A stretch of 64,000 nucleotides of DNA, taken from NCBI GenBank assembly GCA_000169395.1, contig AAXZ01000002.1, forward strand, positions 434,001 through 498,000, read 5' to 3'. Positions 573 to 20,139 of this stretch are shown piece after piece. The DNA comes from Rhodobacteraceae bacterium HTCC2150. Its GTDB lineage: Bacteria; Pseudomonadota; Alphaproteobacteria; Rhodobacterales; Rhodobacteraceae. Within the stretch, counting starts at the first letter, position 1. Every line of letters begins with the position of its first letter. A program made the position numbers and the translations under genes. Under the pieces are notes generated by a model. The model worked only from the letters and a program-made list of their open reading frames with translations. It was not told where the DNA came from and did not search any database.

Positions 573-649
573 GACAGCCTCCTACAATTGAGTTTAATTG
601 CAGAAAGCCCGATTTTAGATGAAAGATCAAATTGATTAAACTAATCACC

Positions 650-1567: not shown

Positions 1568-1678
1568 TCTTGATCCATCGATAGAAATAACTGATTGCCA
1601 GAGTATAACGTATTCATACGTTAGCAACCCGCTAGTGTGCCAACGCAAAAATTGACGAGTTACCCCAGAATGACAAAA

Positions 1679-4742: not shown

Positions 4743-4845
4743 GTGTCCCCAACCTTTTGCGCTTCGTGACAGGTTGCTGTCAGCTTTGCCCCATTTGATG
4801 CCAACATGAGCGGGGTTTCCCGCCTATGTCAAATGGGAGGACATA
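4743..4845. promoter_or_regulatory. Divergent promoter region between tctD-like and tctC genes
   Basis: This 103-bp gap separates two divergent operons and must hold both promoters and any response-regulator sites. A clear Shine-Dalgarno (GGGAGGA) precedes the tctC start. I did not find convincing -35/-10 boxes by eye. Confidence 0.5.
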
Positions 4846-6302: not shown

Positions 6303-6315
6303 ATAAGGCACTAAA

Positions 6316-7821
6316 ATGGACATTCTTTCAAACCTTGCGCTGGGCTTTAGTGTTGCGTTGTCGCCCTATACCCTGATGCTGGCCGTTTGTGGTTGTTTCT
6401 TAGGAACAATCATTGGCGCATTGCCGGGACTTGGTCCTTCAAATGGCGTGGCGATCCTGATCCCAATTACCTTTACTTTAGGGCTAGATGCGACCAGTGC
6501 GTTGGTTTTGATGACATCGGTATATTATGGGGCGATGTATGGTGGCCGAATTAGTTCGATCCTGTTGAATATCCCCGGTGATGAACCCGCTTTAATGACC
6601 ACACTTGATGGGTACCCAATGGCAAAACAAGGCCGTGCTGGGGATGCTTTAGTACTATCTGGTGTGGCATCATTCGTTGGCGCATTACTGGCCACCGTCG
6701 GATTGATGCTTTTGGCACCTACTCTGGCACGCGTGGCCTTCTTATTCGGCCCAGCAGAGTACTTTGCCCTTTATCTATTGGCCTTTTGCACCTTAGGTGG
6801 CATGGCCTCAAACAATCAGGCAAAATCCGCAATTGCAGCCTGCATAGGACTTGGGATTGCAATGATCGGTGTAGATTCATCATCCGGATTGCCCCGCCTA
6901 ACAGGAGGCAATCTACACTTATATGACGGCATTGATTTTCTCGTTGCAATCGTAGGCCTGTTCGCGATCGCAGAGGTGTTCTTTTTCATCGAAAGTCACG
7001 GCAAAGGATCATCCATTGGTGTAAAGTTGGAAAAAGTGCGCGTTCCTTGGGCCGATGTTTGGTTGACCAAGTGGACCATGCTACGTTCCTCTGCGGTTGG
7101 ATTTATCGCGGGAATTTTACCTGGTGCCGGTGCTTCACTTGGATCGTTTTTGGCTTATATGACAGAGAAATCCATTGCAGGCGAAAAAGGTAAATTTGGT
7201 ACTGGCGTGCCCAAAGGTATTGCCGCACCGGAAGCGGGCAACAACGCCGCCGCTGGTGGTGCATTGGTACCAATGTTGACTCTTGGGGTTCCTGGCTCTG
7301 GAACAACTGCGGTTTTGCTTGCCTTACTTATGACCCTGAATATCACACCAGGCCCTACACTGTTTTCTGATCGACCCGAGGTCGTCTGGGGGCTGATCGC
7401 AAGCTTGCTCATTGCCAACGTCGTTTTGTTGTTAATGAATGTACCTATGGTCAAAGTATTCGTGAAGGTCCTGATGGTGCCTGCATGGATATTACTGCCA
7501 GGTGTCACAATGATTTCGTTCGTTGGCATCTTTTCCCTATCAGGCAGCTATTTTGATCTGTTGCTAATGATCGCTTTCGGCGTGTTGGGTTACATCTTGC
7601 GTAAACTCGATATTCCAACGGTGCCCGTCATTCTTGGCATCCTTTTGGGTGGCAATATGGAGGATGCATTGCGTCGCGCCATGACCCTGTCTGATGGTGA
7701 TGTCATGTATTTGTTCAGCTCACCGATTTCGACAGGTCTTTGGATTGCGGCCATTGCCGGCTTCGTGGCACCAATGTTCTTGCGTAATGTATTGCGCAAA
7801 CCACAGGCGGTGACAGACTAA
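6316..7821 (+). CDS. tctA: Tripartite tricarboxylate transporter large membrane subunit (TctA family)
   Basis: This 501-residue, very hydrophobic protein has around ten to twelve membrane helices. It carries the conserved TctA motifs GTIIGALPGLGPSNGVAILIP near residue 33 and GILPGAGASLGSFLAY near 265, plus a third glycine-rich stretch GVPGSGTTAVLLALL. This is the main translocation subunit. It lies within the operon 13 bp after tctB and 1 bp before the AtuA-family gene, so transport and the following enzyme genes are co-expressed. Confidence 0.95.
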   Translation: MDILSNLALGFSVALSPYTLMLAVCGCFLGTIIGALPGLGPSNGVAILIPITFTLGLDATSALVLMTSVYYGAMYGGRISSILLNIPGDEPALMTTLDGYPMAKQGRAGDALVLSGVASFVGALLATVGLMLLAPTLARVAFLFGPAEYFALYLLAFCTLGGMASNNQAKSAIAACIGLGIAMIGVDSSSGLPRLTGGNLHLYDGIDFLVAIVGLFAIAEVFFFIESHGKGSSIGVKLEKVRVPWADVWLTKWTMLRSSAVGFIAGILPGAGASLGSFLAYMTEKSIAGEKGKFGTGVPKGIAAPEAGNNAAAGGALVPMLTLGVPGSGTTAVLLALLMTLNITPGPTLFSDRPEVVWGLIASLLIANVVLLLMNVPMVKVFVKVLMVPAWILLPGVTMISFVGIFSLSGSYFDLLLMIAFGVLGYILRKLDIPTVPVILGILLGGNMEDALRRAMTLSDGDVMYLFSSPISTGLWIAAIAGFVAPMFLRNVLRKPQAVTD

Positions 7822-7822
7822 T

Positions 7823-9181
7823 ATGACAACGCGTGTCTTGATACCAAGTGGTGCACTGGGGCTAAACTATGACCCAGTGGCGCTTGAACGTGGTTTAGCG
7901 ATGAAACCGGATATTATCGCCATTGACGGTGGCTCAACCGACAGTGGTCCCGCCTATCTTGGGCGCGGTGTTTCAAAATACTCACGCGCCAGCACAAAGA
8001 TTGAATGGCAAGGCTTGATGGAAGCCCGCGCCAAAGCTGGCGTGCCATTGGTAATTGGTACATCTGGCACTTGCGGTACTGACAGCGCTGTTGAATGGAT
8101 GTTGGATATCACCCGCGAAATTGCTGCCGATTTGGGACAGTCTATCAAAATCGCTGTTCTTCGTTGTTCTCAAAATCCTCAAGATATTGGCGAATTTTAC
8201 GCGAATGGTCTGATTACCCCCTTACCCGCCGCGCCTGACATAAGCCGGCAAAGCATTGAAGCCTGCAACAATATCGTCGCCCTCGCTGGAGCAGAACAAA
8301 TTCAAGCCGCTATTGAAACAGGCGCCGATATCATCATTGCAGGGCGTACGACCGATACCGCGATAATCGCGGCCCTTCCAATAATGCAGGGCGAAAGCGC
8401 TGGTGCCGCGTGGCACGGCGCAAAAATCGGTGAATGCGGTGCGTTGTGCGCAACGAACCCCCAATCCGGCGTCGTGATTATTGAATTTGACGGTGACAGT
8501 TTTACGGTTATTCCTTTGGCTGACGGCGCGCACGCAAGTCCTCATACCGTGTCCGCACATATGTTGTACGAAAACTCTGATCCATTTATCTTGTATGAAC
8601 CAGGTGGGTATTTGGATGTTACGAATGCCAAATATACCGCAATAGACGATACACGTGTTCGCGTAACGCGTTCTAATTGGGTGCCTTCTGATCAATATAC
8701 TGTAAAACTTGAAGGTGCGCGTGGTGCCGGTTTTCAATGCGTCCTAGTTACGCTGCTGCGTGACGCGCATTACGTTAAAAATGCTTCAATCTGGGCAAAT
8801 GATATCATTGAAAAATGCCGTGACAAGGTGGGCGCGCGTTTGGGGCTTGATCCAAACGATTATGAAATCGAGCTGCGTTTAATGGGAAAGAATGCCAGTT
8901 TTGGCGCGCTTGAAACGCATACGTCACAGCCCCATGAAATTGGCGTTTTAGCAATTGTAACGGCTCAATCTAATGAGGTGGCAATGGAAATCGGCCAATT
9001 TTTGAACCCTTACCTATTGCACCACCCATTAACACGCGCTGAAGAACAGCCAACCTTCGCCTTTCCCTTTTCTCCTGCAGAAATTTCGCGTGGCCAAACC
9101 TATGAGTTTTGTTTGAACCATGTCCTTGAACTTTCCGATCCAATGTCCGCCTTTTCAATCCAAGAGGTGAACATTGCCTAA
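7823..9181 (+). CDS. AtuA family (acyclic terpene utilisation, DUF1446) protein
   Basis: This 452-residue protein opens TTRVLIPSGALGLNYDPVALERGL and contains IAIDGGSTDSGPAYLGRG, IGTSGTCGTDSAVEW and AGRTTDTAIIAALP, characteristic of the AtuA/DUF1446 family. In Pseudomonas the family takes part in citronellol/geraniol breakdown, but most relatives have no proven reaction. It starts 1 bp after tctA and overlaps the following DUF4387 gene by 8 bp. I infer that the AtuA-like and DUF4387 proteins form a two-part enzyme acting on the substrate brought in by TctABC. The symbol is left blank because orthology to atuA is not shown. Confidence 0.88.
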   Translation: MTTRVLIPSGALGLNYDPVALERGLAMKPDIIAIDGGSTDSGPAYLGRGVSKYSRASTKIEWQGLMEARAKAGVPLVIGTSGTCGTDSAVEWMLDITREIAADLGQSIKIAVLRCSQNPQDIGEFYANGLITPLPAAPDISRQSIEACNNIVALAGAEQIQAAIETGADIIIAGRTTDTAIIAALPIMQGESAGAAWHGAKIGECGALCATNPQSGVVIIEFDGDSFTVIPLADGAHASPHTVSAHMLYENSDPFILYEPGGYLDVTNAKYTAIDDTRVRVTRSNWVPSDQYTVKLEGARGAGFQCVLVTLLRDAHYVKNASIWANDIIEKCRDKVGARLGLDPNDYEIELRLMGKNASFGALETHTSQPHEIGVLAIVTAQSNEVAMEIGQFLNPYLLHHPLTRAEEQPTFAFPFSPAEISRGQTYEFCLNHVLELSDPMSAFSIQEVNIA

Positions 9182-9479
9182 ACTCGGTCAAATTGCAGAA
9201 AAAATTCGTTCAAAGAACGCTGGGCCATTTTGGCTAACGGTCGATATTTTCTGTGGAACAGAAGCAGCATATGAAAAAGTGGTGAAGGGATTGACCACCC
9301 GCGAGGTTGCAGAGGCATTTGGGGTAAATCCCCAAGAAATCAAACGCTTTGATATCGCCGATTTGAATGTCGTGAAACTATCCCTACCACGCCCACATAT
9401 CCAAGGGTCAATCTTTGACCCCGACATGCATGGCGCATCTTGGGCGGCTTTGTTGGCGGAATTGCCTCTAAATAATTAG
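9174..9479 (+). CDS. DUF4387 family protein, partner of the AtuA-like protein
   Basis: This 101-residue cytoplasmic protein (KIRSKNAGPFWLTVDIFC, later RPHIQGSIFDPDMHGASW) matches the DUF4387 family, which is encoded beside AtuA-family genes or fused to them. The start is a TTG at 9174-9176, overlapping the upstream stop by 8 bp; an AGAGGTG Shine-Dalgarno 5 bases before it supports that choice. No ATG is available that keeps the N-terminal domain. The biochemical role is unknown. Last gene of the tct operon; no clear terminator is seen before the tRNA gene. Confidence 0.85.
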   Translation: MPKLGQIAEKIRSKNAGPFWLTVDIFCGTEAAYEKVVKGLTTREVAEAFGVNPQEIKRFDIADLNVVKLSLPRPHIQGSIFDPDMHGASWAALLAELPLNN

Positions 9480-9584
9480 ATTTTCTTTGCGCCATTGGGC
9501 GAACGCGAAAAAAACACCAAACAATGAAGTTTTCCGCAATATCTGTCTTGTTCTTTCTTACCAGTTGCTGATACACCCGCCAGC

Positions 9585-9674
9585 GGAGACGTGGCCGAGT
9601 GGTCGAAGGCGCTCCCCTGCTAAGGGAGTAGGCCCGGAAGGGTCTCGAGGGTTCGAATCCCTTCGTCTCCGCCA
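9585..9674 (+). tRNA. tRNA-Ser (GCU anticodon)
   Basis: This 90-nt class-II tRNA has acceptor stem GGAGACG pairing with CGTCTCC, discriminator G and an encoded CCA. The D-arm region is TGGCCGAGTGGTCGAAGGC and the anticodon loop CTGCTAA gives anticodon GCT. A long variable arm (GGCCCGGAAGGGTCTC) is typical of serine tRNAs, and the T-arm is GGGTTCGAATCCC. It reads serine AGC/AGU codons. Its last 15 bases are the left attachment core of the island that follows, and they leave the tRNA intact. Confidence 0.97.
9660..9674 (+). repeat. attL core: 3' end of tRNA-Ser
   Basis: CCTTCGTCTCCGCCA, the end of the T-arm plus acceptor stem and CCA, occurs here and again at 55795-55809 in the same orientation. 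Sequences beyond the repeat differ (CTACCC here, TTATATC there). A perfect 15-bp direct repeat of a tRNA 3' end, with an integrase gene beside the far copy, is the classic signature of tRNA-targeted island integration. Confidence 0.9.
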
Positions 9675-9712
9675 CTACCCTTTAAGTGTGTACTTTCAAG
9701 AGGTTATGGCAA

Positions 9713-9745
9713 TTCATTGACCTTCATTGACCACCGCTATTGACC
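9713..9745 (+). repeat. Tandem 10-bp repeats next to attL
   Basis: TTCATTGACC occurs twice head-to-tail at 9713-9722 and 9723-9732, with a degenerate third copy (GCTATTGACC) at 9736-9745. Two GTTAAGG motifs follow at 9747-9765. Short repeated arm-type sites beside a core are typical of tyrosine-recombinase attachment regions, so these may be integrase arm-binding sites. Function is inferred. Confidence 0.4.
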
Positions 9746-9757
9746 TGTTAAGGGGCT

Positions 9758-10774
9758 TGTTAAGGTGATGTGAGCGAGGTTGAAAAAGACTGATCTACAC
9801 CCCAGCACAAACGAATGCTTAAATATATGTCAGCATTGTTGACCTAATTAAAAAAAATAGTCAGTCAGCAAGGATGCGATAGACACTTGCCCTGCCTATG
9901 TTCAGTTTCTTGGCAATTGCAGTGGCCCCAATACCCTCAGCATGCATCGCTAACACCTCTTTCGCCTTTGCCTTAGCAGTTGGTGCTCTGCCCTTGTACT
10001 TGCCTTGAGCCTTGGCCTTAGCGATACCCTCACGCTGTCTCTCAAGCATGATCGATCTTTCAAACTCAGCCACACCACCCAAAAGGGTTAACATTAGCTT
10101 GCCTGTAGCTGTGCCTGTATCGATGCCCATAGCGAGTATGCGGAGGGATGCACCCTTGGCCTCAACGGCCTCAAGTATCTCAAGCAGGTGAGCCACAGAG
10201 CGGGCTATACGGTCCAGCTTGGTCACCACTATGGTGTCACCCTCGCGGATGTAATCAAGGGCCTCAGCGAGCTTCTCGCGGGCCTTAACATCAACCGAGC
10301 TTACCTGTTCCACAAACAGCTTATCACAACCCGCTTGGGTCAGGTCACGTTGCTGAGCTTCAAGCCCTGCAGTTTGGTCAAGTGTCGAGGTGCGAGCGTA
10401 TCCAACAATCATCATTCAATCCTATCATCTGTCTCATTGAAGTCATAGACGATCTAGGGCAAGTGTCTCAATATTTCAATACGATTTATGTGAGACAGTT
10501 GAAGAAAGATGATGAGACGTATCAATGGAGCAAGCCCTGAGAGACACGCTAAGGTCTTGTTCAGTGCATCGATAGGCAGTTGCTCAGGCTCAGCTGGACG
10601 AGAGAGCAATGTATTTCCCCTGTGGTGAGGAAAGATGACCCTTGAAGTGTGTGTGAGAGAGTTTGGAGGGGTGCCGAGGGGGATTTTCGCGCGATCTATA
10701 TCTATTACTGCAGCTCACATTTTTCTAACAAAATATTCTGGCCCCTAAGGGGTAACCCTCCCATCACCTTAACA
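9758..10774. repeat. Inverted repeat pair enclosing the serine recombinase gene
   Basis: TGTTAAGGTGATG at 9758-9770 is repeated as its perfect reverse complement at 10762-10774, with partial extension on the distal sides (GGGGCT against GGGCC). The pair encloses about 1 kb containing only the serine recombinase gene. It could be the ends of a small mobile unit, or inverted arm sites of the integrase system. An 11-bp palindrome-like CCCCTAAGGGG lies at 10742-10752, just inside the right repeat. Confidence 0.4.
9861..10415 (-). CDS. Serine recombinase (resolvase/invertase family)
   Basis: This 184-residue protein has the complete small serine recombinase layout. The N-terminal catalytic domain has VGYARTSTLDQ (catalytic Ser near 9), TKLDRIARSVAHLLE and GGVAEFERSIMLERQREGI. 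A C-terminal helix-turn-helix follows (GATAIAKKLNIGRASVYRIL). The family resolves cointegrates or inverts segments by a phosphoserine intermediate. It stands alone between inverted repeats at 9758 and 10774, close to attL. No transposase partner is visible, so it may be an invertase or a stray resolvase. Confidence 0.92.
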   Translation of the reverse strand: MMIVGYARTSTLDQTAGLEAQQRDLTQAGCDKLFVEQVSSVDVKAREKLAEALDYIREGDTIVVTKLDRIARSVAHLLEILEAVEAKGASLRILAMGIDTGTATGKLMLTLLGGVAEFERSIMLERQREGIAKAKAQGKYKGRAPTAKAKAKEVLAMHAEGIGATAIAKKLNIGRASVYRILAD

Positions 10775-10987
10775 GGCCCGTGAAGGTGGCCCTAGAGTGT
10801 CGTGAGGTGATGAAGTGGGAGTAGTTTTTCTAGTTTAAGTCATTGACTTAATTGCATTAATTACTTACACATTACTTTCACAGTCAGAAATCAATCGTTG
10901 ATTTCTTTAGTCTTTTTTCTTACAGTTACACAAAATGTTGCACAAACGTGTGACTACTGAAACTCGTAGTAACTCAGAGACTAAGAT
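10416..10987. other. Gene-free stretch between recombinase genes
   Basis: This 572-bp stretch has no convincing coding frame. It holds the right-hand inverted repeat (10762-10774), the CCCCTAAGGGG palindrome at 10742-10752, and an A+T-rich leader with scattered TTAC/GTAA motifs before the tyrosine recombinase start. The composition becomes A+T-richer after about 10820, which probably marks the edge of the next nested element. Confidence 0.5.
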
Positions 10988-12223
10988 TTGGCACTGAAGA
11001 AACGGCACTTTGCTGAAGGCGAAATAGCAATATTTGACGAAGCTTGTATCTACAAGCGAGGTGAGTATTGGCAGTTTCGCTTGTGGTTGCCAAAAGAAAA
11101 CAAGTACGCACGTAAAAGCCTACGCACACGCAGCGAAAGCACAGCAATTGAACGTGGTAAAGCAGCTTACTTAGAGATTTACGCTAATCTCCAACAAGGT
11201 AAAAGTTACTTTTCGATTACTACAAAAGAAGGTGTTGAGAAGTATCTTAGCTTTCGACAGCGTGACGTTGAACTAGGACATATCGTTAAAGGACGACACG
11301 CAACAATAGCAACACACCTACAGCACTTTCTTAACTTCATTGGAAAAGACACCAAGCTCAAAGAACTAGAACGCACTGATTGCGAAAACTACTTCTACCA
11401 TCGCCACAAAGCCACCAACACCAAAGTCAAACAAGTCACAGTTAAAAACGAGCAAAGCACTATAAATGCATTGATGAAGTGGCTGCACAAGAATGGCGAA
11501 ACGCACATCGATGGCTTCGACTTTAAGAAATTGCCACGCTTAGACAAAGGCAACGAATCTATTCGTCGTGCAACACTTACAAACGATGAATACGAAACAC
11601 TCTATCGTGCAATGCGTACCTACTGTGCCAAACACAACAAGCTAGATGACGCTGAGCTTAGATTGCGAAAAATTGTGCAGCACTATGTGCTAGTTGCAGC
11701 TAACAGTGGTTTACGTGTTGGCGAGCAGCGACAGCTGCGTTGGAGTGATGTGCAGATTGAACAGCACAAAGTGAATGGCGAAGAACAAAAGCTAGCACGT
11801 ATCCACGTTCGCGCTGAGACAAGTAAAGTGCGTACAAGTCGTACCTTCTTGTGTCGTAACGGACAGTACTTTGAACGCTTACGCGAAATTGCTAAACCAA
11901 CGAACGCAGATGAACTTGTGTTTACGATTGATGGTGAAAATAAAATCACACAACGTACGATGCTGTATCACTGGCACAAGATGATTGACTTAGCTAACAT
12001 TGCTGACAGAGAAACACGTGACTTAGTACCCTACAGCTTGCGTCACTTTATGATTACGCAACGTATTATGAGTGGGTTAACGTTTAGGCAGATTGCAGAT
12101 ATGTGTGGCACTAGTGTGGCACAGATTGAAAAGACGTATTACCACTTGAATGACGAGATACGCTTAACCAACGCTGTAGCTGACTACAGACGAAGAGAAG
12201 ATGGCACTATTGAAGTGCTTTAA
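10988..12223 (+). CDS. Tyrosine recombinase / phage-type integrase
   Basis: This 411-residue protein has an N-terminal Arm/SAM-like region (HIVKGRHATIATHLQHFLNFIG) and a C-terminal catalytic domain. The catalytic arginine box is ANSGLRVGEQRQLRW, the second box is PYSLRHFMITQ, and the nucleophile is in QIEKTYYHLND near residue 389. The start appears to be TTG at 10988. It converges on a second recombinase gene with a 4-bp overlap of the 3' ends. It probably moved the A+T-richer segment that follows it; it could also act at the tRNA-Ser site. Confidence 0.9.
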   Translation: MALKKRHFAEGEIAIFDEACIYKRGEYWQFRLWLPKENKYARKSLRTRSESTAIERGKAAYLEIYANLQQGKSYFSITTKEGVEKYLSFRQRDVELGHIVKGRHATIATHLQHFLNFIGKDTKLKELERTDCENYFYHRHKATNTKVKQVTVKNEQSTINALMKWLHKNGETHIDGFDFKKLPRLDKGNESIRRATLTNDEYETLYRAMRTYCAKHNKLDDAELRLRKIVQHYVLVAANSGLRVGEQRQLRWSDVQIEQHKVNGEEQKLARIHVRAETSKVRTSRTFLCRNGQYFERLREIAKPTNADELVFTIDGENKITQRTMLYHWHKMIDLANIADRETRDLVPYSLRHFMITQRIMSGLTFRQIADMCGTSVAQIEKTYYHLNDEIRLTNAVADYRRREDGTIEVL

Positions 12224-12789
12224 ATTAGTTCAGCTGCATTACGCTTCATTTCATCATTTACTGTCACATATCTCTGAGTTGTTTGAATGTTCCTGTGTCC
12301 AGCCATATCCGCTAGCACAAACACGCTAACGCCCTTTTGGCTGAGGGCAGTAAGCCAAATGCGCCTTCCCGAATGTGATGTTGCTCCAGCAATCCCAGCA
12401 CGTGCGTACAAACGTTGTAAGTGCTGTGTAGCTGTGTTTGCTGAAAAGTGTGCTTGCTTCTGTGTAGAGAACAAATAACCGTGCAGTGGCTGTTTGTTTA
12501 AGCTGTTAACGTACTCACACAATTGACGCTGCATCTGCTTGGGTAAGAATATCTTACGTGCTCGTTTTGACTTGATACGTGCAGCATCAAGTGTCATCTC
12601 GTCTCGTACTGTGCCGTTTGCATCAAGTATGTCATCAAAACGCAGCGCAGCTACTTCTCCTATGCGTAAGCCACACAAGTGTGTAAACAGCAGCATCGTT
12701 GCATCACGTGCTGCGTAACGACTGCACGAATTTGTTACGTCTAGTAGTTGCTTGAGTTCTGCTTTGTTAAGTGTCTTTGCTTGTGCCAT
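12220..12789 (-). CDS. Short tyrosine recombinase (catalytic domain only)
   Basis: At 189 residues this is only the catalytic domain. It has CGLRIGEVAALRFDDI (Arg I), TSHSGRRIWLTALSQKGVSV (His-x-x-Arg region), DMAGHRNIQTTQRY (second His and Tyr nucleophile) and a short tail. The N-terminal core-binding domain of ordinary integrases is missing and no remnant is visible upstream, so the short form looks native rather than truncated. Comparable short recombinases include FimB/FimE-type invertases. It is convergent with the 411-residue recombinase, and the two may cooperate. Confidence 0.88.
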   Translation of the reverse strand: MAQAKTLNKAELKQLLDVTNSCSRYAARDATMLLFTHLCGLRIGEVAALRFDDILDANGTVRDEMTLDAARIKSKRARKIFLPKQMQRQLCEYVNSLNKQPLHGYLFSTQKQAHFSANTATQHLQRLYARAGIAGATSHSGRRIWLTALSQKGVSVFVLADMAGHRNIQTTQRYVTVNDEMKRNAAELI

Positions 12790-13477
12790 CTAAACAACCT
12801 AAATGTAATGTTTTCATACATATAGTGTATTTTCTGATGTTTGTTATGAGCAACCAGAACGTGCCTTAAAAATACCTTCCATAACTCAAAGACTTACGTC
12901 TAAATGTAAGATAATCACAATTTTCTTACATATTCTAAGTGCTGTTTAAGTGTCAGCTTCGCTAACACTACTTGTGCCGTTTGTTCTTTCGCATTCGCTC
13001 AATCTCAAACAACACAGCGTATTAATCTTCTTATCGTTATTGATGTGGCTCATTTAGATTGTGTTTAGCCATAAGAAGGCTTAAGCAGCCTTCCTACAGC
13101 CTGACAGCGTCTCATTTGAGTTGCTTATCAGCCACTGTGTATCAAGCCTTCTTAGTTTTACCTAAGTTTCGGTGCAGTTGGGCTGTCACCGTTCACTTGC
13201 CTAAGTACCAACGCAACTACGCAGCAATACACAGTGTGCTACGCAGCCCCTACAGTTTCATCATCTGTAGGCTTAGTGCGCTTCTTATTTTATATAGCGA
13301 TTACGAAGCTACCGCCGTTGTGCGTCTCTGCTAAAACGCTGCGTGTGCTGACAAAATCCGATGGCTACAGCTTTCACTGGCAAACTCTTTATCGTTAACA
13401 AAGCACTGTGTGCAGATAAATACACAGCAACATTAACAAGCTGTGCATATAGTTATTTATCAACAAAGGAAAAAACG
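12790..13477. other. Gene-free A+T-rich stretch
   Basis: There are 688 bp between the short recombinase and the next credible gene. A 91-codon frame at 13059-13334 exists but its translation has no recognisable features and no Shine-Dalgarno, so I do not call it. The stretch holds several GTAAG/CTTAC motifs around 12810-12960 that could be recombinase arm sites. Confidence 0.4.
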
Positions 13478-13792
13478 ATGCAGAAAACGGTATTAAACGA
13501 CGTATTTGAGTTATTGCAGCAGATTGGTGCTGTGAGCAGTGAGAGTAAATTTAGTAGAGATTGGCTGTGCAGAAGCGAGTGCTACGTGCGTACGCTGCGT
13601 TTTAAGCGTGTTAAACCCAGTGTGGGTACGTTGGCTATATGTGCAAGCAAGCTTCAGCACTACGGACGCTGTATGACGGCTACAGAAGTCCATACTCAGC
13701 TTGGCAACCGCTTTATAGAGCTGAGTGAGCGGTGTCACAAGCAGATAAACGCTGATGCTGTAGGGTGGTGGAAAGACGAGGTGAGGGTTTGA
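13478..13792 (+). CDS. DUF6626-like small protein
   Basis: It has 104 residues from the ATG at 13478, which follows an AAAGGA Shine-Dalgarno; the frame is open further upstream without a good start. The pattern ELLQQIGAVSSESKFSRDWLCRSECYVRTLRFKRVKPSVGTLAI resembles the DUF6626 family, small proteins found on integrative elements with a Ser-x-x-(W/Y)LGRS-Y signature. The function is unknown, probably DNA-binding or regulatory. Its stop overlaps a possible TTG-started small gene. Confidence 0.55.
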   Translation: MQKTVLNDVFELLQQIGAVSSESKFSRDWLCRSECYVRTLRFKRVKPSVGTLAICASKLQHYGRCMTATEVHTQLGNRFIELSERCHKQINADAVGWWKDEVRV

Positions 13793-13938
13793 CAATTAAC
13801 ACTGTAGCCTCACTTCAACAACCTCGTCATCCGAAATTGGGTTTTAAGCGTGAAAATTTCATGCAGCGGTTTTTAGCGGTGAAGTACTTACAGAAGTTAA
13901 GTGAAGAAATACACTCGGTACCCAGCACTAGTTGCTAA
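13789..13938 (+). CDS. Possible 49-residue coupled small gene
   Basis: A TTG at 13789-13791 overlaps the preceding TGA (TTGA) and opens a 49-codon frame ending at 13938 (ending SEEIHSVPSTSC). GAGG lies just upstream. Tight coupling and basic, helical composition (FKRENFMQRFLAVKYLQKLS) favour a real gene, but I recognise no family. Low certainty. Confidence 0.35.
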   Translation: MTINTVASLQQPRHPKLGFKRENFMQRFLAVKYLQKLSEEIHSVPSTSC

Positions 13939-13946
13939 ATAACAGT

Positions 13947-14267
13947 ATGAACAAGAGTGCATTGCAAGACATACAGCAAGCATTAAATGCTATACGCAGC
14001 GAGATTGAACGTGTTGATGATGAGACAAAGTGGGCTGCACTTGAGTTGATGCTAGGCACAAGCAGAAGTGTAGTAGCACTAGCTAAGAAGATGGCAAAAC
14101 CAGAAACAAAGACAGTGACACGCACTGTAGCTGTTCCAAAGACAAAGATAGTCACGCAGCAACCACAGCAACAGACAGTACCAAAAGACACAGAACGAAC
14201 AGATTTCACACCTATCCGTCCACAACCACCGTTACCAAATCAACAAAACGACAGAAATAAACGCTAA
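13947..14267 (+). CDS. Small hypothetical protein with coiled coil and Gln/Pro-rich tail
   Basis: It has 106 residues from the ATG at 13947. The first half is helical (NKSALQDIQQALNAIRSEIERVDDETKWAALELML) and probably a coiled coil. The second half is low complexity, rich in Lys, Thr, Gln and Pro (VTQQPQQQTVPKD). No signal peptide or membrane helix. I do not recognise a family. It sits in the small-gene block between the recombinases and the methyltransferase modules. Confidence 0.5.
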   Translation: MNKSALQDIQQALNAIRSEIERVDDETKWAALELMLGTSRSVVALAKKMAKPETKTVTRTVAVPKTKIVTQQPQQQTVPKDTERTDFTPIRPQPPLPNQQNDRNKR

Positions 14268-14314
14268 AACACGCTAAAAGTGCACGGATTGTAGCTGTTT
14301 ACATATATGGTTGA

Positions 14315-14337
14315 CACTATGGCTGACTGGCATAGTG
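14315..14337. promoter_or_regulatory. Operator-like inverted repeat upstream of the first H-NS-like/methyltransferase module
   Basis: CACTATG (14315-14321) and its exact complement CATAGTG (14331-14337) are separated by 9 bases. TTGACA at 14311-14316 overlaps the left arm and could be a -35 box. A repressor or the H-NS-like protein itself might bind here. By-eye inference only. Confidence 0.3.
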
Positions 14338-14460
14338 AGGCGCAGTACAAATACTTTTGTCACAATAAAACACATTACAGCAAGCGTAGAAAAAACGTGC
14401 TGTTCATCCCTTTAACAAATCTATTATATAAGACTGTCACATAACCAACGGAGGTGTGAG

Positions 14461-14637
14461 ATGAAATCTTATGACGAGTTGAAAGCTGAAATGGAAGCAA
14501 TTCAGCAGCAGATGGTTGAAGCTAAGAAGAACGAACGTGCAAACGCACTGAAGGAAGTAAAGCGTCTTTGTAAAGACTTTGGCTTTACTGCTGGCATGCT
14601 GAAAGGTTCGCTAGCTAAAGGGAGAGGTGAGAAGTGA
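14461..14637 (+). CDS. H-NS-like small protein, copy 1
   Basis: This is a 58-residue basic helical protein (opening MKSYDELKAEMEAIQQQM; later KEVKRLCKDFGFTAGMLKG). The layout resembles the N-terminal oligomerisation helix and the GFT-x-x-x-L hinge of H-NS-type nucleoid proteins, with only a short basic tail in place of the full DNA-binding motif. A strong GGAGGTG Shine-Dalgarno precedes the ATG. Its stop overlaps the GTG start of the next methyltransferase gene (GTGA), so the two are translationally coupled. A near-identical copy at 15489 precedes a second, different methyltransferase. Confidence 0.6.
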   Translation: MKSYDELKAEMEAIQQQMVEAKKNERANALKEVKRLCKDFGFTAGMLKGSLAKGRGEK

Positions 14638-15449
14638 ATAACACTGAATCTTACAAATCGTTTATGAGAAGCCCATACAGAAGCATAAAACACAGCACTT
14701 ATTTCGAATCATATGACCATTTCTTCTCAAAATATCGCAGTAAAAACATTACATTCGTAGAGATTGGTGTCTTAGGTGGTGGTTCATTGTTTATGTGGCG
14801 TGATTATTTTGGCCCTAACGCCAGAATAATCGGAGTTGATCTAAACCCAAATGCGAAAAAATGGGAAGCTGAAGGCTTTGAAATTTATATCGGAAGCCAG
14901 TCTGATACCGAATTTTGGGAAGGATTTATTGAGAACGTAGGATTGATAGATGTTGTATTGGATGACGGAGGGCATACATATGCACAGCAAATCATCACTA
15001 CTGAAGCCCTCCTTAAATCAATGAAAGATGGTGGGATTATTGTCATCGAAGATACTCACACAAGTTATATGGATAGATTTGGTCCAAAGTCAAAATCCTT
15101 TATTGAGTATACAAAGAAATTGATCGATAGAGTGAACATGCGATTTTCTAAATTCTCCAGTCATAAATCCGAGAGACGAATTTGGAGTATTGAAATAGTT
15201 GAAAGTATGGTTGCGTTCAAGATAAACAATGACGCTTCCAGTCTGATTTCTAAAATAACGGAAAATGATGGTGATGATGATCAAGCACAAAATTTTAGAT
15301 ACGAAGACAATAAATCCCTTAAGAAATTCGATAAGATTTCCACTACATTAGCAATTCTCAAGTACGTGCCGCTAGCTCGTAAAGTCAAAAGATTATTCCG
15401 TACTTATTTGGAGAATAAAAAATTTTCTGCCGATGAGTATTTCAAGTAA
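14634..15449 (+). CDS. Class I SAM-dependent methyltransferase (sugar O-methyltransferase-like)
   Basis: This 271-residue protein has the Rossmann motif I FVEIGVLGGGSLFMWRDYF near residue 42 and the acidic ribose-binding residue in IIGVDLNPNAKKW. It also has DVVLDDGGHTYAQQ and GGIIVIEDTHTSYM, a pattern shared with the CmcI/TylF-like methyltransferases that act on sugars and antibiotics. The start is GTG at 14634, coupled to the upstream H-NS-like gene. I infer a role in glycan methylation. The acceptor is unknown. Confidence 0.75.
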   Translation: MNNTESYKSFMRSPYRSIKHSTYFESYDHFFSKYRSKNITFVEIGVLGGGSLFMWRDYFGPNARIIGVDLNPNAKKWEAEGFEIYIGSQSDTEFWEGFIENVGLIDVVLDDGGHTYAQQIITTEALLKSMKDGGIIVIEDTHTSYMDRFGPKSKSFIEYTKKLIDRVNMRFSKFSSHKSERRIWSIEIVESMVAFKINNDASSLISKITENDGDDDQAQNFRYEDNKSLKKFDKISTTLAILKYVPLARKVKRLFRTYLENKKFSADEYFK

Positions 15450-15488
15450 CCACTCTTAAGTTTATGAGTGAGTGGTATGACAATAAAG

Positions 15489-15665
15489 ATGAAATCATAT
15501 GACGAACTTAAAGCTGAGATGGAAACTATCCAGCAGCAGATGGCGGAAGCTAAGAAGAGCGAACGTGCTAACGCATTGAAAGAAGTAAAGCGCCTATGTA
15601 AAGAGTTTGGCTTTACGGCTGGGATGCTGAAGGGTGCCTTAACTAAAGGACGCAGTAAGAAATGA
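15489..15665 (+). CDS. H-NS-like small protein, copy 2
   Basis: It has 58 residues, differing from the copy at 14461 at only a few positions (M-E-T-I for M-E-A-I, K-E-F-G for K-D-F-G, altered tail ALTKGRSKK). DNA identity stays high across the whole gene but not outside it. The ATG at 15489 is chosen to match copy 1, although the frame extends 7 codons upstream and the local Shine-Dalgarno is weaker. Its stop overlaps the next ATG (ATGA). Same module logic as copy 1. Confidence 0.6.
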   Translation: MKSYDELKAEMETIQQQMAEAKKSERANALKEVKRLCKEFGFTAGMLKGALTKGRSKK

Positions 15666-16387
15666 GTATTTTTCGTAAACTATTGTATGTATCCACGGCA
15701 AAACGTTTAAAAAAGGCAAAAAGATCGATCCAGGAGCGAAAGTTCTCATCTCACTCACACCCTAAAACTTATGATTGGAAGTGGGGAAGCAAAGGTTTTA
15801 ATAGAATTGCAACGGTAAACCACCTAATAGCAATTACTGGTGGATTAAATTCTAAGTATTTGGAAATTGGATGTGAATCAAATACGTTATTCGACTCGGT
15901 TGCTTCAAATTATAAAACCGGTGTCGATCCAGCCAGCGGTGGAACTCATCGAATGACTTCTGATGAATTCTTCGCAAATAATAAAGAGATCTTTAATGTA
16001 ATATTTATAGACGGTTTGCATGAATATGAGCAAGTACACCGCGACGCTTGCAATGCTTTGAATTCAGTAGAAGTTGGAGGTTACATTGCATTTCATGACT
16101 TCCTTCCATCAACTTGGAAAGAACATCATGTTCCCCGTATCAGTAACGCTTGGACTGGTGACTGCTGGAAGTTAGCTGTGCAACTAATCGAAGCTAAAGG
16201 AGTAGAATTTGTCATCTTGGATATCGATCACGGAGTTGGCTTAATGAAGAAGCTAGCTAACGATTGGAGTATCCCTAATGTTGATAAAGATCTTGAATCT
16301 GCTGAGTTTGATTATTTTGTGGAAGTATTGGATCGACTCCCCATTAATTCATTTAATGACGGTTTAACAAAAGTTATAGGTGCTTGA
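15662..16387 (+). CDS. Class I SAM-dependent methyltransferase, second module
   Basis: This 241-residue protein has motif I YLEIGCESNTLFDSV and GVDPASGGTHRMTSDEFF, then FNVIFIDGLHEYEQVHRD and GGYIAFHDFLPSTW. This is the pattern of methyltransferases found among polysaccharide and surface-glycan genes. It is not closely similar to the methyltransferase at 14634 although both follow the same small gene. It overlaps that small gene by 4 bp. Acceptor unknown; glycan modification is inferred. Confidence 0.75.
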   Translation: MSIFRKLLYVSTAKRLKKAKRSIQERKFSSHSHPKTYDWKWGSKGFNRIATVNHLIAITGGLNSKYLEIGCESNTLFDSVASNYKTGVDPASGGTHRMTSDEFFANNKEIFNVIFIDGLHEYEQVHRDACNALNSVEVGGYIAFHDFLPSTWKEHHVPRISNAWTGDCWKLAVQLIEAKGVEFVILDIDHGVGLMKKLANDWSIPNVDKDLESAEFDYFVEVLDRLPINSFNDGLTKVIGA

Positions 16388-16405
16388 ATTACTTTTACTC
16401 GCCAC

Positions 16406-16494
16406 TGTCTGACGTCAGCACTCATGGGTCCAAATAGCGGTATTTGATCAGAGAGTGTCCTTGGATCATCGTGACCCCTGAGGAGTGGAAGATG
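16406..16494 (+). repeat. Solo left end of an IS (TGTCTGACGTCAGCAC family), copy A
   Basis: TGTCTGACGTCAGCAC starts an 89-bp block that also occurs at 41741-41830, with the same TCATGGGTCCAAAT and GTGGAAGATGA stretches. A related end (TGTCTAACGTCAGCAC) at 25826 is followed by a true transposase orfA start, so these are solo IS left ends. The IS body is missing here. Confidence 0.6.
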
Positions 16495-16607
16495 ACGAAG
16501 GTAAACAAACCAAAGTTGAAGTTGCCAAGCGTGTTAAGCGTTGGTGGACTGCTAGTGTTGATGGAAAGATAAATCTTGTAATGCGCTATGGAAGCAAGCC
16601 TTTAGAG
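16488..16607 (+). pseudogene. DUF6641-like protein, C-terminal fragment
   Basis: In the frame starting at 16488 the translation reads EDDEGKQTKVEVAKRVKRWW, then DGKINLVMRYGSKPLEW. This resembles the C-terminal half of DUF6641 proteins, small mobile-element proteins with a KRVRxWW...DGK...VRYG pattern. The 5' part is replaced by an IS end and the 3' end is cut by the IS3-family element at 16608. Not functional. Confidence 0.5.
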
Positions 16608-16645
16608 TGGACCTGTCACGCTTTCGTGCCGCCCCCGGTGCTCGT

Positions 16646-17503
16646 TTAAGCCACCTTTCGTTCGAAGGCGACAGGGCTTTTCCAGCCCAGAGCTGAGTGG
16701 CGGCGTCGCGGATTGTAGAAGCCGTTGATGTATTCGAAGATGGCCATCTCAGCCTGCCTGCGGGTGTCCCATGTGTCTCGCCAGATTAGCTCTGCTTTGA
16801 TCGTTTTGAAGAACGTCTCAACCGCCGCATTATCATAGCAATTTCCTTTGCCGCTCATTGACGCCTTGAACCCGTGATTGCGCAAGATCTTTTGATAATC
16901 ATGCGAACAATATTGGCTGCCACGGTCAGTGTGATGGATACAGCCTTTTGGTGGCGCTCGGAATGCAATGGCCATGTTCAAAGCTCGGATCGCCAAGTCA
17001 CGCTTCATCCGGTTGCTGACCGCCCAGCCAATCACGCGCCGAGAATGCAGGTCGAGGATCACGGCAAGATACAACCACCCCTCTCGCGTCCAGATGTAGG
17101 TAATGTCGCCAGCCCACTTCTGGTTTGGCTGATCTGCAATGAAGTTTCGGTCCAGCAGGTTGGGCGCAATGTTGAACTTATGGTTGCTGTCCGTCGTCAC
17201 CTTGTGTTTGCGGGTTCTGATCACTGATATGCCGTTCTGGCGCATTAAACGCCCGACACGGCGATGGCCGATATTCAGGCCAATCTCTTTCAGCTCTTCA
17301 GTCATTCGTGGGCGACCGTAACTGCCCAGGCTGAGACGCGACTGCTCTTTGATATGAGCCAACGTGACCAAATCAGATCGCTGCCTACAGCTGGCAGGGC
17401 GGTTGCGGAACGCACGCAAGCCGCGTGGACTGACAGCCATGACCCGACACATCCGGCCAATGGAAAACGTAGATTGGTGCTCTTCGATGAACTTAAACCT
17501 CAC
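16646..17503 (-). CDS. IS3-family transposase OrfB (integrase domain)
   Basis: This 285-residue protein has an HTH_21 segment and then an rve integrase core with the DDE residues in AGDITYIWTREGWLYLAVILD, HHTDRGSQYCS and YDNAAVETFFKTIKAEL. It ends WKSPVAFERKVA. It overlaps orfA by 4 bp; IS3 elements normally join the two by a -1 frameshift to make the active transposase. An AAAAAAG slippery heptamer lies at 17533-17539 (minus strand) within orfA. The frame is intact. Confidence 0.93.
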   Translation of the reverse strand: MRFKFIEEHQSTFSIGRMCRVMAVSPRGLRAFRNRPASCRQRSDLVTLAHIKEQSRLSLGSYGRPRMTEELKEIGLNIGHRRVGRLMRQNGISVIRTRKHKVTTDSNHKFNIAPNLLDRNFIADQPNQKWAGDITYIWTREGWLYLAVILDLHSRRVIGWAVSNRMKRDLAIRALNMAIAFRAPPKGCIHHTDRGSQYCSHDYQKILRNHGFKASMSGKGNCYDNAAVETFFKTIKAELIWRDTWDTRRQAEMAIFEYINGFYNPRRRHSALGWKSPVAFERKVA

Positions 17504-17775
17504 GGATTTTGGCTCGCAAAGAACACCGTGGCCTTTTTTAGGATCTCCCGCTCCTCCTTGAGAATACGGTTCTCGCGCCGAAGCCGGTCATTCTCTTGGG
17601 CCAGTCCCAAATCCTCTTTCGACACCACGTCTGTGTCTCGGTGTGCGGTGATCCATTTATTCAGCGTCGACATGCCGACGCCAAGATCATCAGCCACCTG
17701 CTTACGCGTCAGCCCACTGGTCAGTGCGATCCGCACCGCATCTTGCCGAAATTCGTTCGTTCGTTTCAGTCCCAT
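17500..17775 (-). CDS. IS3-family transposase OrfA (helix-turn-helix)
   Basis: This 91-residue protein has an HTH_8 domain (RQDAVRIALTSGLTRKQVAD) followed by a leucine-zipper-like helix (LAQENDRLRRENRILKEER), as usual for IS3 OrfA. It binds the IS ends. A candidate programmed -1 frameshift site (A AAA AAG) near its 3' end would fuse it to OrfB. Nearly identical to the OrfA at 40344-40619. Confidence 0.92.
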   Translation of the reverse strand: MGLKRTNEFRQDAVRIALTSGLTRKQVADDLGVGMSTLNKWITAHRDTDVVSKEDLGLAQENDRLRRENRILKEEREILKKATVFFASQNP

Positions 17776-17863
17776 AGTCAGTCTCCTTTGTTGCAGTAAA
17801 TGCTATCAAAGGAGCGGCATCAAACCGTGACAGGTCCATTATTTAGGGATGGAGGAAGTTTCC

Positions 17864-18760
17864 ATGACGAACGAAGAACGCGACATTCAACGCAAATTGA
17901 GGGTGCTTCAACACGCCGAAAAGATCGGCAATGCCCGCAAAGCCTGTCGGTATTTTGGGATTGGGAGATCCAGCTTCTATAGATGGCGGGATGCGTATCA
18001 AAAGCATGGCGAATCTGGTCTGAAGAATGCCAAATCTATTCCAAAGAACCCTGCCAATCAAACGCCGCCAGAGATCGTGGAGAAGGTTCTGTATCTACGC
18101 CGCAAGTATCACCTCGGGCCCATCAGGATCGTCTGGTATTTGGCGCGCTATCACGGCATCAAAATCTCGGATGCAGGGGTTTACCGTATCCTCAAGCGCA
18201 ATGGTCTCAACCGACTACCCAGAGGCACACGAATGCGTAAATTACACACAAAACGCTATCAGAAACAGGTGCCAGGACACCATATCCAAGTTGACGTCAA
18301 GTTTCTGACATTCAAAGGAAAACGCGGCGAGAAAGTACGCCGCTTCCAGTTCACCGCGATCGATGATGCGACAAGAGTTCGGGCCCTTAAGATCTACGAG
18401 AAACACACGCAGGCAAGCGCAATCGACTTCATTGATCACATCATTGAAAAGTTCCCGTTCCGTATTCGTGAAGTGCGGACAGATAACGGCCACGAGTTCC
18501 AAGCCAAATTCCATTGGCATGTTGAAGATCTTGGGATCAGGCACGCCTACATAAAACGCGGCACGCCCCAGTTAAATGGAAAAGTGGAGCGATCTCACCG
18601 ATCCGATCAACAGGAGTTCTATCAGCTCCTGAGCTACAAGGGTGATGTCGATCTCGAGGCCAAGCTGGACGAGTGGGAACGGTTTTACAACTTCGCCAGA
18701 CCACACGGCGCGCACAATGGGCAGACCCCTTACGAAGCTCTCAGAGACAAGCTACAGTAA
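17864..18760 (+). CDS. IS481-family transposase
   Basis: It has 298 residues from the ATG at 17864. An N-terminal helix-turn-helix (NARKACRYFGIGRSSFYRWRDAY) is followed by an rve/DDE core with Asp in HIQVDVKFLTF, Asp in REVRTDNGHEF and Glu in LNGKVERSHRSD. Full length for IS481 and apparently intact. Its 5' flank begins at most 26 bp after the IS3 copy 1 right end, so the IS481 left end may have been lost. A shortened relative lies at 25182. Its right end truncates a Sel1-repeat gene. Confidence 0.9.
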   Translation: MTNEERDIQRKLRVLQHAEKIGNARKACRYFGIGRSSFYRWRDAYQKHGESGLKNAKSIPKNPANQTPPEIVEKVLYLRRKYHLGPIRIVWYLARYHGIKISDAGVYRILKRNGLNRLPRGTRMRKLHTKRYQKQVPGHHIQVDVKFLTFKGKRGEKVRRFQFTAIDDATRVRALKIYEKHTQASAIDFIDHIIEKFPFRIREVRTDNGHEFQAKFHWHVEDLGIRHAYIKRGTPQLNGKVERSHRSDQQEFYQLLSYKGDVDLEAKLDEWERFYNFARPHGAHNGQTPYEALRDKLQ

Positions 18761-18785
18761 CCCCACAAGTGTCCCGCAGGTTCGT

Positions 18786-18902
18786 CTAGGCTACATCGCC
18801 AGTATCATAAGCAGCTAAGCCCTTTTGAAAGTCCTGTGCAGCCAATGGTGTGAAGGCCAACGACAATACTGTGGCTAGGGCTAATCTGGTGGGTGTAAAC
18901 AA
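18786..18902 (-). pseudogene. Sel1-repeat-type secreted protein, N-terminal fragment
   Basis: On the minus strand a TTG at 18900-18902, with GGAAG upstream, opens LFTPTRLALATVLSLAFTPL then AAQDFQKGLAAYDTGDVA and a stop. A signal peptide followed by QDFQKGLAAYDTGD is typical of the start of Sel1/TPR-repeat proteins in this group. The frame ends about 25 bp from the IS481 transposase stop, so the gene was cut by that element. Confidence 0.55.
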
Positions 18903-18919
18903 GGCTTCTTCCTTTTGGG

Positions 18920-18933
18920 CTAGCGATCGCTAG
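18920..18933. repeat. 14-bp perfect palindrome
   Basis: CTAGCGATCGCTAG, containing GCGATCGC, lies in the upstream region of the Sel1-like fragment. It may be an operator or chance; no second copy was noticed. Confidence 0.4.
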
Positions 18934-18963
18934 GTTTGCCTGGTTGCACCTGTTAGTCAATTA

Positions 18964-19503
18964 TTACGTCTGCTTTTTTCGAATAATACTGTCTTGAACG
19001 TCCCACCTTTTCAAAGTGCAGCCAACAACCAGGGGCAAAATGAAAGTGATACACGCTCCTACGGCGCAATACACGCCTAACGCCATAATGATTGAGGCAC
19101 CCAAAAAGAGCGATCCAGCCGCAGCCAGCATCCCGACTAATACCCCAAGCAGCAAGTATCCCAGCACATTTGAGTCGTTTTCCACCCCATAGGCCGAAGG
19201 GGTACTGTACTCTTGCGCGGCCGCGAGATCTGCCTGCAATTCAATCTGCGTGGAGTTAGTGTCGTCACACTCGCCAGATCCCTTTGCCAGAATTTCCCAA
19301 GGGAGCACGCTAGCATCCAGATTTGAATCAGCAAAGTGGTGTGTAGCAGTATTCAGGTTTTCAAGATGACCCTTCCGTGCACACGCCTTTCCTAAAAAGC
19401 CTCCAAGCATGCGGGCAGAACGAGAACGGAATGCCGGGCATTTTCTTGTATCATGCTCAGGTTCAGGGCCAGCAGACGCCCAGCCATTTTGATTGAAATT
19501 CAT
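18964..19503 (-). CDS. Hypothetical membrane protein
   Basis: It has 179 residues from the ATG at 19501-19503. The first 110 residues are polar. Two adjacent membrane helices follow (VLGYLLLGVLVGMLAAAGSLFLG and MALGVYCAVGACITFILPLVVG) with a basic C-terminus. There is no signal peptide and no recognised family. It lies with the 107-residue gene and the protease gene on the same strand, but the gaps are too large for a tight operon. Confidence 0.45.
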   Translation of the reverse strand: MNFNQNGWASAGPEPEHDTRKCPAFRSRSARMLGGFLGKACARKGHLENLNTATHHFADSNLDASVLPWEILAKGSGECDDTNSTQIELQADLAAAQEYSTPSAYGVENDSNVLGYLLLGVLVGMLAAAGSLFLGASIIMALGVYCAVGACITFILPLVVGCTLKRWDVQDSIIRKKQT

Positions 19504-19815
19504 CACCTCAATATCCTCTGTTCCATATTTTTCCTCCAGTCCAGCAAGCGCGAGCCTTGAAAAGAAATATAAACTCGCAATCTAACTTGTCAGCGATATT
19601 CGTAAAAAGTTTAATTCTGTGCAATTACGTGCAAAATTTCTGATGTAATTTTCCTGAAACGCCGCATAGGATAGTCTTTACTGCCGAGAGCACAGTCCAA
19701 GCCTTTGTAAAGTGGAATTAAAACAGTCGTTAGAGTCACAAAAACACTGACTTCAAATATCCAAGCTTGGTGCGAGTGTTATTAAAGCGATAATGTGCAG
19801 TTTCCAGTATCACCA

Positions 19816-20139
19816 CTAATTACCGCGAACCTCTGAGAGGGTTGTTTTACCGCGGTGCTGGATCACGCTCTGTTCAATTTCGTCCATCACAGACAAGACG
19901 CAGCGCTGCAGTGCGTAATCAACTGAGCACGTAGATGCTTGCTGATCTCCATCGGTTGCGATGAGACTTTCATCCAAGGCAAGGTACACATCAGCAAGAA
20001 TAATGCTCTCAGGATGACGTGCCAGTGCAATTCTCAAGCGCCCCAAGACCCGACGGACGGCGGCAGGGTTGGCTCCTGCATGATTGGTTATGTCCAAGGA
20101 GATCCGTAAACGGTCAGGATTACCCACCCAGCGTGCCAT
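19816..20139 (-). CDS. Hypothetical protein
   Basis: This is a 107-residue soluble protein (MARWVGNPDRLRISLDITNHAG, later RRVLGRLRIALARHPESIILADVYLALDES). The alternating pattern looks like a compact alpha/beta protein. I recognise no family and see no motif that suggests a function. It is flanked by gene-poor sequence. Confidence 0.45.
   Translation of the reverse strand: MARWVGNPDRLRISLDITNHAGANPAAVRRVLGRLRIALARHPESIILADVYLALDESLIATDGDQQASTCSVDYALQRCVLSVMDEIEQSVIQHRGKTTLSEVRGN

Follow-up and report, generated by a model that had tools for sequence, protein, structure and literature searches.

The stretch analysed here, hereafter the window, comprises 64,000 nucleotides (nt) of Rhodobacteraceae bacterium HTCC2150 (contig AAXZ01000002.1, positions 434,001 to 498,000; positions below count from its first letter), and it contains two copies of a small gene whose product has 58 amino acids (aa). 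This gene seems to mark the constant entry point of the cargo slot in an apparently mobile island, one present in many unrelated marine bacteria, and we consider it probable that it is the conserved leader of a cargo operon in a family of such islands, most of which lie at the 3′ end of guaA. Comparison of the relatives establishes an island with defined ends, a constant junction between small gene and cargo, diverse cargo, a wide spread, and different closest relatives for the two copies in the window; the same comparisons suggest that the island is mobile. In the mechanism we propose, ribosomes would be loaded on the small gene, often through a strong ribosome site, and, as its stop codon usually overlaps the cargo start (ATGA), finishing ribosomes could restart on any cargo gene that lies behind. 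Because the cargo is interchangeable and to a considerable extent of a glycan-modifying type, gain of an island would probably alter the cell surface, for example with respect to phages, and this alteration is the presumed benefit.

The small gene and its junction with the cargo

The two copies (Table 1) encode proteins that are 86% identical, and their DNA is 83% identical over 182 nt (14459–14640 and 15487–15668), where the similarity ends, in agreement with an initial annotation of this stretch, which had recognised the same small gene twice and confined the DNA resemblance to it. As also stated there, each copy overlaps by 4 base pairs (bp) the start of a methyltransferase gene (GTG for the first, ATG for the second). 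The two methyltransferases, described as unrelated, are instead distant relatives, as both match Pfam Methyltransf_24 and align weakly with one another (33% over 45 aa, E 0.002). The genome carries a third copy on contig C21, inside another island at guaA; there ATA replaces the start ATG and the next gene, a Methyltransf_11 member, is overlapped by 8 bp. Duplication of the cassette in place is disfavoured for the window pair, since copy 2 is closer to the copies of other loci (90.5% identical to that of L033 and 89% to that of L028) than to copy 1 (83%), and the small-gene tree places the two apart. Copy 2 thus probably came with another element, and together with its cargo it seems to be a unit from such an element, attached to the first unit where ORF233 begins. 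The DNA of cargo methyltransferase 1 is 75% identical in the gammaproteobacterial locus L055, small-gene end included, and that of methyltransferase 2 is 72% identical in the same locus, there without a small gene; the latter homologue lies near genes that we take to be for dTDP-rhamnose synthesis, which suggests a source for the cargo.

Among 39 copies with a readable 3′ end and next gene, 27 overlap that gene by exactly 4 bp, three by 8 bp and two by 1 bp, and two are separated from it by 1 nt (the other five are weighed below; L021, one of the 39, runs off its contig after 25 codons). Left out of this sample were L011 (G045, followed by a host gene), L013 (G288, without cargo) and L022 (which runs into a stretch resembling an rRNA operon), as well as L033 copies 2 and 3, L038, L040, L042, L045, L046, L048, L051, L053, three L054 copies and L093, in which the 3′ end is missing, the frame or tail is broken or the contig ends, or which were not examined. 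The 39 cargo proteins fall into 27 families (blastp at 1e-5), with 21 families among the 27 exact overlaps, as expected from the earlier prediction that the downstream gene would vary while the junction stays constant. When the first cargo gene of at least one member per family was scanned against Pfam, 12 of the 27 families matched enzymes that are not methyltransferases (Acyl_transf_3, DUF4910, SxtJ, formyltransferase twice, MBOAT, PS_pyruv_trans, Antibiotic_NAT, GINT1_N, SASA, sulfotransferase and PglD), eight matched general methyltransferase families, one (L049, first copy) has a weak resemblance to a DNA methyltransferase, and six gave no Pfam match (L012, L019, L028, L031, L034 and L060). 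Second cargo genes include NeuB, carbamoyltransferase, DUF4910, formyltransferase, SDR and AMP-binding members, and an ABC transporter lies behind one L054 unit outside the junction count. These family assignments suggest that much of the cargo is fit for surface-glycan modification, as had been proposed from the window, the methyltransferases being of a general type. At the far side of the cargo, the start of ORF233 overlaps the cargo end in L023, L027, L033 and L035.

Island ends, the guaA site and the hosts

Matches to window positions 9000–20000 in blastn searches of the relative loci start exactly at 10814 in 15 loci. When 19 left ends were aligned, 13 lay behind the guaA 3′ end (the C21 copy included), where the gene's final codons are GAG TGG GAG TAG, and three behind the right end of another island (L030, L033 and L056); that of L055 is the contig start, and the last two, in the window and in one L056 copy, lie elsewhere. 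Of 43 named loci, 24 have guaA ahead of the small gene within the fetched stretch, 8 nt to 7 kilobases (kb) away, and guaA is upstream in L004, L011, L012 and L092 too; the 19 named loci without it include several on short contigs, and L025, L032, L042, L044, L059 and L061 have 10 kb of upstream sequence in which guaA is absent. The attachment core is carried at the right end exactly in L023, with one mismatch in 20 in L026 and L030, and with two to four mismatches in L004, L019, L027, L028, L033, L037, L039, L047, L056 and L058; left and right attachment sites form direct repeats in L023, L026, L030 and L033, and with more mismatches in L028 and L047. Where both ends are seen (L023, L026 and L033), the island is ∼1.8 to 7.6 kb long. 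A full island, such as that of L023, has the order integrase, short recombinase (opposite strand), DUF6626 gene, 111-aa gene, small gene, cargo, ORF233, DUF6641 gene and right end, and the integrase and short recombinase lie beside the small gene in the window too, as the initial annotation had noted. The 1.8-kb island of HTCC2181 (L026) consists of the left end, the small gene, one polysaccharide pyruvyl transferase gene and the right end.

The guaA site appears in the available genomes in both the occupied and the unoccupied state. In G006 (L097), a relative without the small gene, an EamA match begins 59 nt past guaA, and on C21 of the window's genome guaA and EamA are ∼4 kb apart, 2.8 kb of which is that island; in 17 other genomes with an EamA match, guaA lies in the fetched flank of seven, at a spacing of 59 to 1230 nt. 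An island targeted to tRNA genes was considered on account of a tRNA-Ser near the window copy and rejected, as the left ends of the relatives lie mostly behind guaA; a tRNA is near the element in few of 32 loci scanned. L033 (6196–19476) and L054, which overlap on one gammaproteobacterial contig, carry several islands in series at different stages of decay.

The 43 loci come from a scan of named genome contigs for relatives of the small protein, the best being 97% identical (L045 and L046 share an assembly, as do L048 and L051). Their hosts, as named in the record titles, are SAR116, Pelagibacteraceae, Methylophilales HTCC2181, Burkholderiales and several Gammaproteobacteria, with Motilimonas eburnea, Hwanghaeella grinnelliae and Halovibrio variabilis among the isolates, and one small contig is binned as Flavobacteriaceae. 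Matches are rare in evenly drawn genomes: 7 of 295 at the level of the family, 5 of 390 of the order, 4 of 385 of the class and 16 of 398 of the phylum, each count taking in the window's own genome. Several of these are not the small gene or not new, as G217, G233, G278, G470 and G509 in the family and order counts hold full-length H-NS proteins, G735 and G917 in the class count appear to be the same organisms as L023 and L040, and 13 of the 16 phylum matches lie at positions ∼1–50 inside frames of 102–145 aa and are presumably H-NS proteins. G1193, with two adjacent partial matches and stops, looks like a broken copy, and G1101 (L092) is a new clear member in the phylum sample, with the order guaA, 111-aa gene, small gene, FkbM methyltransferase, ORF233 and DUF6641. 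In L022, a Pelagibacteraceae single-cell contig (10001–14541), the small gene runs into the rRNA-operon-like stretch with tRNA-Ala and tRNA-Ile, perhaps through an assembly joining error.

Leader, island protein or homology arm

On balance, the pattern of decay and the ribosome sites fit a leader that hands ribosomes to the cargo, and translational coupling would be the reason for the constant junction. The small gene has lost its front in L043, L047, L049, L055, L056, L058 and L059 and keeps its end with the 4-bp overlap (in L050 front and overlap are both lost), and L060 (alphaproteobacterial) and L061 (gammaproteobacterial) have lost the same 33 mid-gene codons in frame and keep the ribosome site, start and ATGA. 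As several decayed copies thus retain the run-in to the cargo with the front or middle lost, and a few have lost the end instead, a leader is favoured. Of seven small-gene copies checked, four have a Shine–Dalgarno energy of −13.4 kcal/mol. Early stops are present in 10 of 29 aligned copies (L020, L028, L030, the second copy of L033, L035, L036, L037, L039, L048 and L057), nine at codons 15–17 and one at codon 10, and all 10 fall 0–2 codons ahead of an ATG at codon 11 or 18, which nine of them retain (it is changed in L057). Eight of the ten, scattered on the tree, have no insertion or deletion, and behind the stop these eight depart from the consensus by 5.1, 2.6 and 16.2% at codon positions 1, 2 and 3, like intact copies, although much of this variation may predate the stops. 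An early stop with a kept ATG possibly reflects stop-and-restart translation, or only a C-to-T bias. A special ribosome site in the end of the small gene was rejected: 26 cargo starts are purine-rich, with a mean Shine–Dalgarno energy of −7.0, yet sequences shuffled at equal composition do about as well (−6.4).

Several observations weigh against a leader. Gaps of 17–42 nt occur in five of the 39 junctions, four with the same acyltransferase, and the small genes of G045 and G288 are not followed by coupled cargo; the initial annotation had named such copies, were they usual, as telling against its view, and they occur in these two cases. The gene end is lost or altered in L038, L040, L042, L048, L051 and one L054 copy, and the truncated L047 copy has a further stop just behind codon 18. 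The ribosome site is weaker in three of the seven small genes checked (L033, −8.8; window copy 2, −4.3; C21, −3.8, also with the ATA start), and those of the cargo, as stated above, do not exceed shuffles. The chance of the observed stop placement ranges from 4e-7 (equal rates) to 0.06 (C-to-T 20-fold), and as it depends on the assumed bias, stop-and-restart is only a hint. The left flank of the window element is not guaA, and no right end of this element was found. All loci were located via the small gene, so that its constancy is partly selected for. Finally, 16 intact copies depart from the consensus by 4.8, 2.1 and 15.4% at codon positions 1, 2 and 3 (13 broken copies by 8.2, 3.9 and 17.6%), and as second positions change far less than third positions, the protein itself is under selection in the mobile form and cannot be a leader only.

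This selection is consistent with a small coiled-coil protein that serves the island, for example in excision or replication, and stands beside the cargo slot by chance. The predicted structure, two helices with a predicted local distance difference test score of 79.8 and a predicted template-modelling score of 0.39 (too plain for a fold search), and the position of the small gene in L013, in the core between AAA+ ATPase and DUF6641 genes and without cargo, point the same way. We nevertheless regard this explanation as somewhat unlikely, as it accounts neither for the repeated exact overlap with unrelated cargo nor for a second copy ahead of a second cargo gene. L013 (G288, 228–10617) is a divergent island relative with the AAA+ ATPase gene, two further genes (of 273 and 247 aa) and, immediately ahead of DUF6641, the small gene, along with genes that we take to be porin-like and sulfotransferase-like; since its small gene lies in the core without cargo, the small gene may have been an island gene first and a cargo leader later. 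A search of solved structures with the small-protein profile gave no H-NS structure among 25 listed, and the best match, a human coiled coil (Transmembrane protein 266, E 0.0073), was taken as chance coiled-coil similarity.

It is unlikely that the small gene serves chiefly as a DNA homology arm for cargo exchange by homologous recombination, the reading preferred in the initial annotation. The small gene is indeed the last conserved DNA ahead of the variable cargo, chimeric junctions lie at or inside it in L031, L049, L050 and L056, and the closest relatives of the window copies differ. However, the constraint tracks the reading frame rather than the DNA, the chimeric junctions examined resemble short-homology joins and not arm exchange, and small gene and cargo can move jointly (window copy 1 and L055). 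Nor is a recombination core at the junction, suggested along with this reading, supported, as the defined ends are found at the guaA attachment site rather than at the small gene, in which conservation stops near codon 51–54 and the last codons vary with the cargo.

The remaining alternative, that the small protein, as a truncated H-NS of the kind of H-NST on enterobacterial islands, pairs with the host silencer and lifts the silencing of the cargo, is distinctly improbable. Its profile matches full-length H-NS with an hhalign probability of 97.7% (E 1.7e-12) in the N-terminal half only, against an H-NS set that had been gathered with the same query, and five plasmid proteins annotated as H-NS match residues 1–44 at 44–50%; the earlier label ‘H-NS-like’ therefore holds for this oligomerisation half and not for the remainder of H-NS. 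The codon constraint likewise indicates a working protein. However, PF00816, which we take to be the DNA-binding half of H-NS, is absent in 14 of 18 host genomes, those of the window, IMCC14465 and HTCC2181 included, and present in four (several of the genomes are incomplete single-cell assemblies, and G735 and G1307 seem to be the same organism), so that H-NS antagonism is unlikely as a general role and in most hosts tested, and host copies tolerate early stops and internal deletions. The small protein may nonetheless act as a chaperone or as some other regulator, the second suggestion of the initial annotation. H-NST (EARL, serU islands) is likewise an N-terminal part of H-NS carried on mobile genomic islands (PMC7074111), whereas the small gene is joined by overlap to interchangeable cargo and mostly lacks a PF00816 partner in its hosts.

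The element in the window among known systems

Table 1. Features of the island in the window
Feature	Position	Strand	Remarks
Element left end	10814..10824	.	AGTGGGAGTAG, rest of guaA-type attachment core; blastn matches begin here in 15 loci
Tyrosine integrase, 411 aa	10988..12223	+	Phage_integrase 3.3e-12; full-length homologues 91–92% in L019, L023, L027, L033
Short tyrosine recombinase, 189 aa, catalytic domain only	12220..12789	-	Phage_integrase 8.1e-28
DUF6626 gene, true start uncertain	13361..13792	+	PF20331 1e-32; conserved in element
Conserved 111-aa gene	13932..14267	+	Conserved in element; no Pfam family above cut-off
19-nt motif AAGCGTAGAAAAAACGTGC	14382..14400	+	79 nt upstream of small gene copy 1
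Shine–Dalgarno GGAGGTG of copy 1, strong	14450..14456	+	Duplex energy −13.4 kcal/mol
Small gene copy 1, 58 aa	14461..14637	+	Resembles H-NS N-terminal half
Cargo methyltransferase 1	14634..15449	+	Methyltransf_24
ORF233 remnant, first 8 codons MSEWYDNK	15464..15487	+	17–21 of 26 nt identical to 13 ORF233 starts elsewhere
Small gene copy 2, 58 aa, without strong Shine–Dalgarno of its own	15489..15665	+	
Cargo methyltransferase 2	15662..16387	+	Methyltransf_24
ORF143 (DUF6641) fragment, conserved downstream gene	16493..16608	+	Cut at 16608, insertion sequences next

The short recombinase also occurs in L019, L023, L027 and L033, and at 45% in L013. The motif AAGCGTAGAAAAAACGTGC recurs ∼104 nt before the right end in several elements, with a variant inside ORF233, and is perhaps a recombinase or regulator site. 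No sigma-70 promoter was found before the small gene, 14268–16500 containing five candidate sites where 6.3 are expected. The tRNA-Ser (9585–9674) and a serine resolvase gene stand directly to the left, within 9585–10415; as the window island is not at guaA, it may sit inside another island. To the right of the broken DUF6641 gene, a minus-strand pair of open reading frames, presumably IS3-like, lies beside an IS481 transposase gene (NF033577) at 16646–18760.

No published description of this element was found in the literature searched, which left subscription journals and preprints outside. GIsul2 (PMC9376610) likewise inserts at the guaA 3′ end with core GAGTGGGA, has a tyrosine integrase and shows core sites in series. 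The present island differs from it in gene content, to the extent that this was annotated (no search for the genes of GIsul2 itself was made), in its length as given above, in the cargo behind a conserved leader, and in its alpha-, beta- and gammaproteobacterial hosts, most of them marine according to the record titles. A tblastn search of plasmid records with the integrase, which involved no direct comparison with GIsul2 Int, gave three matches at 22–29% identity, none in Enterobacterales. Another guaA element is ICERspD18B (PMC7775301), and strand-biased circularizing elements (SE) and GInts have the core genes tfp and srap, or ginC and ginD (PMC10214605).

Tycheposons, VEIMEs and PICMIs are also marine integrative elements with recombinases and cargo; unlike tycheposons (tRNA site) and PICMI (fis site), the present island uses guaA, and in the viral contigs scanned no relative of its integrase or small protein was found, one contig having a DUF6641 relative. 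That relative (L062, an IMG/VR contig, 8001–8348), next to what is presumably a DNA methylase gene, and another in L090 (G689, 6178–6594), among genes we take to be flagellar, lie outside the island family, and the phage records gave no small-protein or DUF6641 match. Integron gene cassettes offer a further parallel, with interchangeable cargo, a leader open reading frame at attI and units in series, so that swappable cargo behind a fixed leader and serial units are shared; unlike in integrons, whole islands rather than single cassettes carry the attachment sites. An integron was rejected for the window, as the integron integrase is missing (TIGR02249 scores 36 bits, the cut-off being 265), as are long border repeats; seven inverted-repeat pairs of at least 20 nt are present, none bordering the two cargo units, a length at which shorter or gapped attC arms would escape.

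A wider view, which we offer only tentatively, is that the small gene marks a portable expression slot. A former H-NS fragment would have become a translated leader, behind whose ATGA diverse glycan-modifying genes are expressed across proteobacterial classes; ORF233 and the leader would be the two fixed edges of a site at which cargo is swapped without integron machinery, and marine bacteria would in this way trade sugar coats. An isolate with a complete island is at hand in IMCC14465 (L023). If the small gene is the leader of a mobile cargo operon, the islands would be a route for surface-glycan genes among SAR116, Pelagibacteraceae, Methylophilales and gammaproteobacteria, a newly arrived gene would be expressed at once in very different hosts via the conserved leader frame, and phage-receptor chemistry would have a way to spread across unrelated marine bacteria.

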